Below the pieces are notes generated by a model. The model saw only the letters and a list, made by a program, of their open reading frames with translations. It was not told the DNA's origin and made no database searches. A stretch of 64,000 nt of DNA from Opitutaceae bacterium (lineage in GTDB: Bacteria; Verrucomicrobiota; Verrucomicrobiia; Opitutales; Opitutaceae): contig JAIXWF010000012.1 of NCBI GenBank assembly GCA_027482185.1, positions 290,025 through 354,024 of the forward strand, given 5' to 3'. The position numbers and the translations under genes were made by a program. Of this stretch, positions 32,854 through 51,829 are shown piece by piece (position 1 is the stretch's first letter; each line of letters starts with the position of its first letter).

Positions 32854-33129
32854 GATTGCGGAGCGCGGATTGCGAATTGCGGATTGGAAATCCCGGAAAT
32901 CCGAAATCGGCCTTGGCAGCGCGATGCCCTTTGGAATGCGCCAACGTTAACCGATCCGAAATTCGTCCCCGCCCCTCACGAGCAATCTTCGAATTGAGAA
33001 TCTTCAAATTGCGGATCGCGAATTGCGAATTGCGGATTGGAAAACCGGAATTGCCCAAACCTGATTCAGCCCCGGCCCTCGGACGGCCTTGAACAATCCG
33101 CATTCCGCAATCCGCAATTCCCAATTATA
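32854..33129. repeat. heptad repeat family B, three arrays between convergent genes
   Basis: 32854-32902 GATTGCG GAGCGCG GATTGCG AATTGCG ...; 32991-33053 nine units; 33095-33129 AATCCGC ATTCCGC AATCCGC AATTCCC. Confidence 0.93.
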
Positions 33130-35981: not shown

Positions 35982-36062
35982 TGCCGCGGAGCAAACCGCC
36001 GGACCGGCCTTCTGCAAGCCGACCCGGCCGATCCCGCGGCGATTTTCCGCCGCGCCGGGCGG

Positions 36063-36101
36063 ATCGATCTCTCAACTCTCAGCACTCAACTCTCAACTGC
36101 G
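36063..36101. repeat. heptad repeat family A, single array with GATCGAT header
   Basis: GATCGAT CTCTCAA CTCTCAG CACTCAA CTCTCAA CTGC. Confidence 0.9.
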
Positions 36102-38859: not shown

Positions 38860-39669
38860 ATGTTTCCCGCCCTCGAAAAATACCGCCAGGCCTTCCTCGT
38901 CGGTCTCCAGAGCAATCTGGTCTATCGTTGGAACTTCGCCATCCGCGGGTTCTTCTCCCTCTTCCATCTCGCGGTCGTTTTCATTCTGTGGGGCGCGGCG
39001 TTCGAGGGCGCGGGCAACATCGGCGGCTTCGACCTGCGGCAGACGCTCACCTACTTCATCACGATCCTCGCGCTGCAGTTTCTCGTCAGCGCGTTCAACG
39101 AGGACTACCAGATCAGCGAGGAAATCCGCAACGGCCTGATCAACCAGTTCCTCCTCAAGCCGATCAACTACTTCGCCTACCGCTTCAGCATCTTCGTCGC
39201 GGCGCGGCTCGTCTCGGGTTCGCTCATTTTGATCCCGTTGCTCGTCGCCCTGCCCGTCATCGGCGAATACCTCACCTTCCCGCTCGAGCCCTGGCGCCTC
39301 GCCGTCGGCCTGCCCGCGGTGCTGCTGTCGGCGTTGATCCAGTTCTGCATCGCCTACTGCTTCGGCATGCTGACGTTCTGGTTTCTCGAGATCCAGGGCT
39401 TCGTCATCCTCTCCCTCGCGATCGAGGCCGTGCTCGGCGGCCAGATCTTCCCGCTCGACCTGATGTCGCCCGACGTGTTCGCGGCCTCGATGCTCCTGCC
39501 GTATCCGTACCAAATGTACTTCCCGGCCGCCATCTTCACGGGCCGCTTCGGCTTCGAGGAATCGCTCTGGTGCCTCGGTATCCAGGCCTGCTGGGTCGGC
39601 ATTCTTCTCACCGTCGGCCACGGCCTCTGGCTCCGCGGCCTGCGCCGCCACACGGCGGTGGGAGGCTGA
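38860..39669 (+). CDS. ABC-2 type transporter permease (DUF990-like)
   Basis: Six-TM; YRWNFAIRGFFSLFHLAVVFILWGAAFEG; NGLINQFLLKPINYFAYR. Confidence 0.85.
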   Translation: MFPALEKYRQAFLVGLQSNLVYRWNFAIRGFFSLFHLAVVFILWGAAFEGAGNIGGFDLRQTLTYFITILALQFLVSAFNEDYQISEEIRNGLINQFLLKPINYFAYRFSIFVAARLVSGSLILIPLLVALPVIGEYLTFPLEPWRLAVGLPAVLLSALIQFCIAYCFGMLTFWFLEIQGFVILSLAIEAVLGGQIFPLDLMSPDVFAASMLLPYPYQMYFPAAIFTGRFGFEESLWCLGIQACWVGILLTVGHGLWLRGLRRHTAVGG

Positions 39670-39673
39670 ATGG

Positions 39674-39781
39674 ATAATTGCGAAATGCGGATTGCGGAAT
39701 GCGGATTGACCGACCGACCGACCAACTACGCCTTTCCGAATTAGCGCCTTTCCCAATCCGCAATTCGCAATCCGCAATTCG
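39674..39781. repeat. heptad repeat family B, inverted, between two permease genes
   Basis: ATAATTG CGAAATG CGGATTG CGGAATG CGGATTG ... CAATCCG CAATTCG CAATCCG CAATTCG. Confidence 0.93.
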
Positions 39782-45870: not shown

Positions 45871-46596
45871 ATGACGAACGCGGACGCCTATCCCCTGCCC
45901 AATCGCCTGCGTGAAACGGCCGTCGGCGAGCGGCCCCAGGAACGCCTCGAACGCTGCGGCCCCGAGGCCCTGAGCGACACGGAACTGCTCGCCCTCCTCC
46001 TGCGCAGCGGCACCCGCGGCCACGACGTGCTCACGGTGGCCGCCCGCCTCATCGGCGAGGCCGGTTCGCTCGCCGGCCTGATCGCCTGGCAACCGGCCGA
46101 CTTCCTTAGGCTCAAGGGCATCGGCAAAATCAAAGCCGGGCAATTGGTCGCCGTCATGGAGGTCGCCCGCCGCGTTCTCGGCCACCGGCCTGCCGAAGCG
46201 CCGCTGCTCGGCAGCCCCGATGCCATCCACGACTACGTGCGGCCCTTTGCGACCGGCCTCGAGGTCGAGAAATTCTGGGTGCTCTGCCTGAACCGGAAAA
46301 ACCGGCTGCTGAAGCATGTCGAGGTTTCGTCGGGCACCGCCACCGCCGCCCTCGCCCACCCGCGCGAGGTCTTCCGCACTGCGCTGCGCGAAGGGGCGAT
46401 CGCTTTGGTCTGCGTGCACAACCATCCGAGCGGCGACCCCGCGCCCAGCGCCGCCGATGTCCAAGCCACGCGCCAGCTCCGGGAGGCCGCCCGCGCCGTC
46501 GATATGGCGCTCATCGACCACGTGATCGTCGGCCGCCCCGCCGCCGACCCGACAGGCCGCGGCTACTACAGTTTCCGGCAGGCGGGGATGCTGTGA
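45871..46596 (+). CDS. radC: RadC family JAB-domain protein (alternative start 45835)
   Basis: RERPQERLERCGPEALSDTELLALLLRSG; VHNHPSGDPAPSAADV. Confidence 0.93.
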   Translation: MTNADAYPLPNRLRETAVGERPQERLERCGPEALSDTELLALLLRSGTRGHDVLTVAARLIGEAGSLAGLIAWQPADFLRLKGIGKIKAGQLVAVMEVARRVLGHRPAEAPLLGSPDAIHDYVRPFATGLEVEKFWVLCLNRKNRLLKHVEVSSGTATAALAHPREVFRTALREGAIALVCVHNHPSGDPAPSAADVQATRQLREAARAVDMALIDHVIVGRPAADPTGRGYYSFRQAGML

Positions 46597-46703
46597 GCGA
46601 AAAGGAAATCCCGTCGAACCAAGGACAGGACGGACAGGAAGGGAGGCGGCGGATGCACCGGACGAATTGCAGGAACGGCAACGAAACATTTCGCCGAAAG
46701 ACT

Positions 46704-46815
46704 GCTGACCGCTGAAAGCTGACTGCTGATCGCTGAAGGCCGATCGCTGACCGCTGAACGCTGATCGCTGCCGGCTCAACGCTTTGAGCTTACCGCTTTC
46801 AGCTTAAAGCTGCGC
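46704..46815. repeat. heptad repeat family D (GCTGATC), 16 in-phase units
   Basis: GCTGACC GCTGAAA GCTGACT GCTGATC GCTGAAG GCCGATC GCTGACC GCTGAAC GCTGATC GCTGCCG GCTCAAC GCTTTGA GCTTACC GCTTTCA GCTTAAA GCTGCGC. Confidence 0.95.
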
Positions 46816-46837
46816 GCCGCGCACGCGCCCCGCCCGC

Positions 46838-47785
46838 TCACAACCTGCCCGTCACGCTCGACCGCGCGATCGCTTCCAGCCACTCGCCGGTCTCGAGCAC
46901 GACGCGCTCGGTGTCGCCGGGGAAAATCTGCGGGGCGATCTCGGCGCGGAACTGTTCCCACGCGCGCAGCAGGAAATTGCGGATGTCGGCATCCTGCTCG
47001 AACTGCACGCGGTCGGCCTGGTTCTTGAGTTCCGGGATGCCGGCTTCGTGCAACTTCTTCGTGCTCGTGATCAGCGTGTCGAATTCGATCTGCGCCTCGG
47101 CGAGCGGCAACGTGCGGATCTTCGCGACCCAGGTGGCGTAGTTCGTTTCCACGAGCCGGGGCAACGGCTTTGTCTCGACGCCGCTCTTCTGGAACAGCGC
47201 GAGCTGGGCGTCGGCGATCTTGTTGGCGAAACGCACTTCGTTCTGCACGTGCTCGGCGGCCTCGACGGCGAGCTGGAAGCCCTGGATCGCGCCGGCGGAG
47301 TAGAGCTTGGTTTCGCGGTTGTAGCCGGAGCAGGCGAGGTTGCGCACGTTGCCGAGCGAGCGCGTGAACTCGAAGATCTTGCCGCCGAAACGTTCGAGGC
47401 AGCGCAGCCAGTCTTCCTTCTGCCGGCGCGCGGCCAGGGCCTGAACGTACTCGGGACAACTGTCGCGCAGGAGGACTTCGATGGCGTCCTCGATCTGGCG
47501 TTGGATATGCGGTTCGCAGCGGTCGAGCAGGTCGAGGCGTTGCCGGAGGCCTTGGACGCGTTCGCGGGCGGCGGCCAGTCCGGCGGCCCGTTCGTCGCGT
47601 TTCTTCGGGGACAACAGCGCCAACAGGGACGGACGACGCGCCTCGAGGGCCCGCAGTTCGGCTTCCCGTTGTTCCCAGAGCGGTTTGATCTGCGCCCGAC
47701 CCAGCTTGAGATGCGCTTCCCGGACCAGCAGGTTATGCAGGATTTGGCCGGGATCGGTCTCGGGATTGGCGGGAACAGCGGTCAT
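46838..47785 (-). CDS. conserved-looking hypothetical coiled-coil protein
   Basis: 315 aa; no recognised family. Confidence 0.65.
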   Translation of the reverse strand: MTAVPANPETDPGQILHNLLVREAHLKLGRAQIKPLWEQREAELRALEARRPSLLALLSPKKRDERAAGLAAARERVQGLRQRLDLLDRCEPHIQRQIEDAIEVLLRDSCPEYVQALAARRQKEDWLRCLERFGGKIFEFTRSLGNVRNLACSGYNRETKLYSAGAIQGFQLAVEAAEHVQNEVRFANKIADAQLALFQKSGVETKPLPRLVETNYATWVAKIRTLPLAEAQIEFDTLITSTKKLHEAGIPELKNQADRVQFEQDADIRNFLLRAWEQFRAEIAPQIFPGDTERVVLETGEWLEAIARSSVTGRL

Positions 47786-47936: not shown

Positions 47937-48022
47937 TGGTGGTAGGACCTGGATTCGAACCAGGGAAGGCGTAAGCCAGGAGATTTACAGTCTCCCCTCG
48001 TTGGCCACTTGAGTATCCTACC
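47937..48022 (-). tRNA. tRNA-Tyr (GTA)
   Basis: Reverse complement GGTAGGATACTCAAGTGGCCAACGAGGGGAGACTGTAAATCTCCTGGCTTACGCCTTCCCTGGTTCGAATCCAGGTCCTACCACCA; acceptor stem, TTCGAAT T-loop, long variable arm, GTA anticodon, encoded CCA. Confidence 0.95.
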
Positions 48023-48955: not shown

Positions 48956-49100
48956 GATAGTAGCGCGTAGCGAGTAGTGAGTAGCGGGTAGTGAGCAGGA
49001 CAGCCGATAGGCGAAACGTAGGTTTTGCGCGACCGGAGTGGTGCGGGAGCGAAGCGAAGATGGTTTGCTGCTCGCTACCCGCTACTCACTACTCGCTACC
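48956..49100. repeat. heptad repeat family E (GTAGCGA), near-perfect inverted repeat between tpiA and pgk
   Basis: GTAGCGAGTAGTGAGTAGCGGGTAGTGAGCAG (48967-48998) / CTGCTCGCTACCCGCTACTCACTACTCGCTAC (49068-49099), 31 of 32 complementary. Confidence 0.95.
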
Positions 49101-51633: not shown

Positions 51634-51681
51634 TTATTGGCATATTGCCCGGGGCGCCGCGCCCGCCCCGCGCCGCCCCGT

Positions 51682-51818
51682 GCAGTTGAGGGCGCTTGGT
51701 TGGGGGTTGAGAGCAAAACCATCGGGTTTCGCACGGACCGAGGGGGCCGGGCTGCGATGGAGTTTTCCGGACCTCGGCAGATCGGTCTCTCAACTTTCAA
51801 CTCTCAGCTTTCAACTGC
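51682..51818. repeat. heptad repeat family A, inverted, between gap and the GH13 gene
   Basis: GCAGTTGAGGGCGCTTGGTTGGGGGTTGAGAG ... TCTCAAC TTTCAAC TCTCAGC TTTCAAC TGC. Confidence 0.9.
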
Positions 51819-51829
51819 GCTATCCCGCC

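Follow-up and report, generated by a model that had tools for sequence, protein, structure and literature searches.

The heptads at 46704-46815 belong to a class of degenerate 7-nt repeats found genome-wide at gene 3′ ends in an Opitutaceae-like lineage, and their array is one of well over a hundred loose repeat patches that mostly lie just 3′ of genes. Within the window (the whole stretch of 64,000 nucleotides that was analysed), the array comprises 16 consecutive in-phase heptads, every one opening with GCT except for a GCC at 46739; when units starting with either GCT or GCC are counted, the run amounts to 17, the additional GCC unit standing at 46816. Elsewhere in the window such runs reached at most 4 units, whichever strand was read, and the maximum in 100 dinucleotide shuffles was 5. 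TRF reported periods of 7, 14, and 21 for the array (scores of 64, 78, and 97, respectively). The strict 7-nt phase, in which a core is fixed while other positions vary, had been claimed in the sequence-only reading and was confirmed, as were the single GCC among the GCT starts and the nine opening units of the type GCTGANN (more precisely, GCTGANN or GCCGANN). The same reading had taken the last five units to be GCTTNNN, which was incorrect; only units 12-15 begin with GCTT (Table 1), and unit 16 reads GCTGCGC. These four units are of the same word class as the GCTTA/AAGC arms present at other loci.

That the second half of the array resembles a reverse complement of the first, as had also been noted, is only weakly true. 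One clear complementary core is present (GCTGAAAGC at 46711-46719 and GCTTTCAGC at 46795-46803), a proper inverted copy is not, and a repeat search of the array yielded no inverted repeat of at least 10 bp. The RNA of the array folded no better than shuffled sequences on either strand (z = +0.86 on the radC strand and -1.13 on the opposite strand). Its order is atypical, with GCTGA units first and GCTT units after, which is the opposite of that in all 13 inverted GCTGANN pairs of the genome (see below). The array is, hence, a weak or decayed example of its class and not a model case.

Table 1. Positions in the window of the array, its parts, its neighbouring genes, and comparable loci
Feature	Position	Strand	Remarks
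radC, convergent left neighbour	45871..46596	+	Start codon provisional; Pfam RadC PF04002, E=2.2e-39
Nine heptads GC[T/C]GANN (units 1-9)	46704..46766	+	
Two transition heptads (units 10 and 11)	46767..46780	.	GCTGCCG, GCTCAAC
Four GCTTNNN heptads (units 12-15)	46781..46808	+	GCTTTGA, GCTTACC, GCTTTCA, GCTTAAA
Tail of the in-phase run (unit 16 and GCC unit)	46809..46822	+	GCTGCGC, GCCGCGC
Unnamed protein gene, convergent right neighbour	46838..47785	-	315 aa; no Pfam match
Comparable locus	33008..33126	.	ATTGCGG arm 33008-33039, inverted CAATCCGC arm 33094-33126
Comparable locus	39669..39781	.	ATTGCGG arm 39669-39708, inverted CAATCCGC arm 39754-39781
Comparable locus	48960..49099	.	GTAGYGA arm 48960-48998, inverted GCTACTC arm 49067-49099
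Copy of the ~151-bp element	51678..51827	-	CTYTCAA array 51787-51816; E=1.3e-26
Partial copy of the ~151-bp element	36041..36100	-	CTCTCAA array 36069-36098

The array lies, as had been stated beforehand, between two convergent genes, radC and the gene of the unnamed protein. It begins 107 bp beyond the stop of radC and approaches the stop of the unnamed gene to within ~20 bp. The only terminator-like site in this gap was found on the minus strand at 46631-46608, outside the array, and no stable GC hairpin followed by a U-tract, that is, no intrinsic terminator, was present within the array. The gap holds a second repeat at 46615-46665 (ccaaggacaggacggacaggaagg), copies of which, 77-89% identical, occur in some twelve further intergenic regions. 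A gene for tRNA-Tyr(GTA) is located at 47937-48022 on the minus strand, upstream of the unnamed gene.

The source genome (6.43 Mb in 24 contigs), probably of Opitutaceae (Verrucomicrobiota) since a relative of the neighbouring gene is known from a Verrucomicrobia MAG, was searched for further arrays. The pattern GCTGANNGCTGANNGCTGA, i.e., GCTGANN three times in succession, matched 228 times and the reversed control pattern not once, so the array is not unique. A scan independent of any word counted the segments that resemble a copy of themselves shifted by a set number of bases (the lag). In C3:1-1200000 of the source genome, 95 such segments were found at lag 7, compared with 0-2 at lags 4, 5, 10, 11, 13, 17, 19, and 20; lags divisible by 3 were also raised, as is expected for coding DNA. 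Lags 8 and 16 showed a small excess in the same region (12 and 9 segments, respectively, versus 0-2 at most neighbouring lags), from which an octad repeat class may be surmised. The words repeated with period 7 include CTYTCAA, AACYCCR, AATYCGC, ACCGGAR, AAAACCC, GTAGYGA, and the GCTGANN/GCTTANN class, and the same few words reappear at unlinked loci. Near-perfect arrays of GCTGACC or GCTGAGA, with ~12 to 20 units, were observed at or near the starts of contigs (G000:C8:2-146, G000:C1:538-619, and, in the sister species G006, G006:C31:138-233), which fits array expansion that breaks the assembly.

The period extends beyond the source genome. Five relatives, of which 60-93 kb each were scanned, likewise peaked at lag 7, in agreement with the expectation that relatives would be periodic, and their words were partly different (e.g., GGCTTCC/GGCCTCT in G022; CTTCACC and TCATTGG in G030). 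Among 57 genomes, the source genome included, GCTGANN three times in succession was frequent only in the source genome and in G006 (66 matches), the others having 0-11 matches. A scan of the phylum with three successive GTTGARR gave counts well above the control chiefly within the family of the source genome; outside it, the forward and control patterns were often about equally frequent. GCTGANN is, therefore, one word among several, and it is the period and not the word that is common to the family. An Rfam search of the window, L083, and L041 returned no match above the gathering score.

Arrays were strongly biased with respect to genes, the boundaries of which are approximate because they were called with a simple codon-usage caller. 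Of 117 lag-7 arrays, 101 were intergenic. Among gaps of up to 300 bp, an array was present in 45 of 143 convergent, 59 of 503 co-directional, and only 1 of 159 divergent ones (Fisher p = 9e-16 for convergent versus divergent gaps). The nearest gene end was a 3′ rather than a 5′ end for 86 of 113 arrays, compared with 52 ± 5 after random placement, and purine-rich arrays near a 3′ end mostly started within ~20 nt of the stop codon. Strand was similarly constrained: downstream of the stop in convergent gaps, arrays that are purine-rich on the coding strand outnumbered the others 29:1, and arrays with a 5′ end as the nearest gene end were pyrimidine-rich in a ratio of 18:4. In 31 of 34 GCTGANN arrays in convergent gaps, TCAGC was on the strand of the gene with the nearest 3′ end, a rule that the array at 46704-46815 follows with respect to the unnamed gene. 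Convergent gaps were again richest in arrays in G006 (27/53), where divergent gaps (10/72) carried them less rarely than in the source genome; in four other relatives, with small numbers, arrays occurred in 5/39 convergent, 6/111 co-directional, and 1/40 divergent gaps.

A typical locus consists of one or two arms, each with ~3-9 copies of a 7-nt word having a fixed core of ~5 nt plus variable positions. Where there are two arms, they are inverted and ~10-100 nt apart. Pairing of arms was assessed by ungapped inverted matching within each gap, with swapped gaps as the control. The best inverted match in an array's own gap averaged 11.6 versus 8.0 for swapped gaps, and a score of at least 14 was reached by 52 of 139 arrays versus 12.3 expected. 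Thus, ~37% had an inverted partner of the same word in their own gap, whereas ~60% were without a clear one at the cut-off used. Direct matches in the own gap were not in excess for these 139 arrays (8.0 versus 8.06 for swapped gaps). All 13 inverted GCTGANN pairs ran TCAGC first and GCTGA second, and a single pair was on the same strand. The variable NN bases of the two arms were not complementary (13 matches versus 14.6 for swapped arms); any pairing is, therefore, core to core and not visibly selected at the NN positions. RNA duplex energy was also tried as a pairing test and rejected, as it was swamped by the GC-rich background, with control segments scoring equally. Folding was compared with shuffles on samples of gaps. 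Co-directional gaps folded markedly better with arrays than without (z of -2.96 versus -0.64), convergent gaps folded about equally well with and without them (-2.67 versus -2.59), and divergent gaps did not fold beyond shuffles (+0.15). Terminators with a U-tract were found in 7 of 46 gaps with arrays versus 26 of 89 without, a lower frequency that was not significant (p = 0.09).

Retention was followed between the source genome and G006, one genome per species, which share 144 reciprocal best hits with a median protein identity of 87%. For 63 adjacent gene pairs, arrays were present in both species at 8 junctions, in one only at 3, and in neither at 52 (p = 1e-7); that is, 8 of 11 array-bearing junctions carried them in both. 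Where GCTGANN arms occurred in both species, the core, phase, strand order, and position were kept, and the number of units and the NN bases differed (e.g., at C3:1034164 of the source genome). Adjacent units shared their NN bases slightly more often than shuffled ones (45 versus 37 ± 3.5), which is consistent with unit duplication. At the radC junction, for which six loci were compared, the gene pair was seen to be kept among the relatives only in L021 (62% identical), with a convergent gap of 55 bp that contains no array. Either a gain of the array in one lineage or its loss in the other must, accordingly, have taken place.

A dispersed palindromic element of ~151 bp (GCCGGGATCATGCAGTTGAG...CTCAACTGCATGAGTTCGGC) came to light when arrays were masked and the gaps compared among themselves; its arms carry CTYTCAA heptads, and the best-defined CTYTCAA copies are located there. 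Copies or fragments numbered 73 in 1.95 Mb of the source genome, where many intergenic regions of contigs C3 and C7 carry them, and 33 in 0.48 Mb of G006. Convergent and co-directional gaps hold most of them, and some begin right at a stop codon. Nine of 17 full copies were flanked by identical triplets (TGA, TCA, or TAA), compared with 4.2 expected by shuffling (p = 0.002). Duplication of a TNA target occurs with some insertion sequences, and the triplets are compatible with it; they are suggestive only, since in many cases such a triplet coincides with the stop codon and is embedded in a palindromic context. Neither a clean empty site nor a transposase gene associated with these ends was found. 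The whole element at high identity was confined to the source genome and G006; in other genomes, either matches of ~70% were found or, for the most part, only the heptads matched, in several instances as an inverted pair. The GCTGANN loci that were read have no common interior or ends. Bacteria carry REP/BIME and MITE-like elements, which are palindromes dispersed in intergenic DNA (cf. PMC3733652 and PMC2229807). The ~151-bp element would be of this kind; the GCTGANN loci are devoid of a common interior.

Many bacteria have an excess of heptameric repeats, the role of which is unexplained (PMC4692102). The closest known system is that of the Xanthomonas GGGAATC and Nostoc GGGGA(C/T)T (or GGGGATT) repeats, heptads of intergenic DNA that are fixed at some positions and variable at others. 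These lie mostly at a distance of 0-50 bp from a gene, downstream of its stop if on the coding strand and upstream of its start if on the opposite one; they are rare between divergent genes and recur at the same junctions in related species with varying length and sequence, their function being unknown (PMC4692102). The arrays described here share the tandem 7-nt units in intergenic DNA, the position near stop codons, the strand rule, the shortage in divergent gaps, and the conservation of junctions combined with variation in length and sequence. In contrast to the single G-rich word of those systems with its G-quadruplex potential, several words occur here, GCTGANN has no G-run, and arrays are often inverted pairs of arms. 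Several heptad words in one genome are also a trait of the heptanucleotide STRRs of the cyanobacterium Calothrix. A report of three such Calothrix words is cited in PMC4692102. TAACTGA direct repeats of Beggiatoaceae, Cyanobacteria, and Bacteroidetes are, like the present arrays, abundant, intergenic, and variable in array length (PMC4679880). They are, however, a single exact word, which in a Beggiatoaceae genome stands mostly just upstream of start codons, with one indirect repeat in the draft (PMC4679880), whereas different words are found here, mostly at 3′ ends. With regard to terminators, most of the intrinsic termination sites that PMC8355165 identified correctly are no more than 80 nt from the stop, and one of its sections is entitled 'Presence of poly A/U trails is not necessary in genomes'. 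By forming hairpins soon after the stop, the arrays would resemble the U-tract-less or clustered terminators of that source, the abstract and section list of which make no mention of heptad-built arms. The openly available literature that was searched contained no description of heptads in Opitutaceae. What appears to be novel is the multiplicity of words, the inverted pairing of arms, and the ~151-bp element.

A role at transcript ends is quite possible, if somewhat short of probable: judged from sequence, the arrays would be fast-evolving, putative 3′-end elements of a terminator- or stabiliser-like kind. In the RNA, the cores of the two arms would pair with each other, as GCUGA does with UCAGC, and the NN positions would form 2x2 internal loops; such core-to-core pairing would work in any 7-nt register and, hence, tolerate the gain or loss of units. 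The long 3′ hairpins, mostly without a U-tract, would act in termination or in 3′-end stabilisation, those between convergent genes being usable from both sides, and copies would arise via slippage of units and dispersal of palindromic elements. The position of the arrays, the strand rule, the inverted partners, and the retention at shared junctions favour this role, and the lack of covariation in the variable bases together with the weak folding of the array at 46704-46815 calls for caution. The better folding of co-directional gaps with arrays, the sharing of NN bases by adjacent units, and the terminator positions given in PMC8355165 also favour it; the ~60% of arrays that have no clear partner, the equal folding of convergent gaps with and without arrays, the non-significant difference in U-tract terminators, the divergent gaps of G006, and the array-free radC junction of L021 count against it. 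Neutral slippage, by which heptads would expand everywhere and survive only after stops, where nothing is broken, is a somewhat unlikely account, though several observations agree with it. Avoidance of promoters would explain why short divergent gaps are nearly free of arrays (1/159), and template switching would yield inverted arms; the variable bases do not covary between arms, identical neighbouring units are slightly in excess, the near-perfect arrays located where contigs begin or shortly thereafter (C8:2-146, C1:538-619) suggest active expansion, and the radC junction of L021 has no array. However, slippage alone would not be expected to produce strand rules of 29:1, 31:3, and 13:0, nor an excess within gaps of inverted but not of direct matches, and arrays retained at 8 of 11 array-bearing shared junctions and the recurrence of the same few words at unlinked loci speak against it as well.

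The readings overlap. The 73 copies or fragments of the ~151-bp element in 1.95 Mb, with CTYTCAA heptads in the arms and the same triplet on both sides of 9 of 17 full copies (4.2 expected), could mean that heptads represent the arms of small non-autonomous palindromic elements, which would use TNA, stop codons included, as their insertion site and have spread through the genome, other words being older families. As an explanation of the arrays this is unlikely, given that the triplet is often the stop codon in its palindromic context, that an empty site and a matching transposase were not found, that the GCTGANN loci read share neither interior nor ends, and that in other genomes it is mostly the heptad part alone that matches; such debris may be the origin of the arrays rather than an alternative. 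By analogy with the proposal for TAACTGA repeats (PMC4679880), a protein might instead read one word per 7 nt on DNA or mRNA. The fixed core with free positions, the strict phase, the conserved strand relative to the gene, and a core that is conserved where pairing partners do not covary would suit such binding. Yet several unrelated words in one genome, other words in relatives, and a location mostly after stops, as opposed to the placement of Beggiatoaceae TAACTGA mostly just upstream of start codons, render it very improbable.

Returning to the putative transcript-end elements, it is doubtful, though conceivable, that the 7-nt period is conserved across the family while the word drifts because inverted arms make slip-tolerant, self-repairing, fast-evolving 3′ hairpins that are usable from both sides. 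This lineage combines several words with a strand rule, inverted arms, and a sister species that shares junctions but differs in units, so that the retention of the period can be tested against that of the word, and the same material allows a test of whether the arrays end or protect transcripts.
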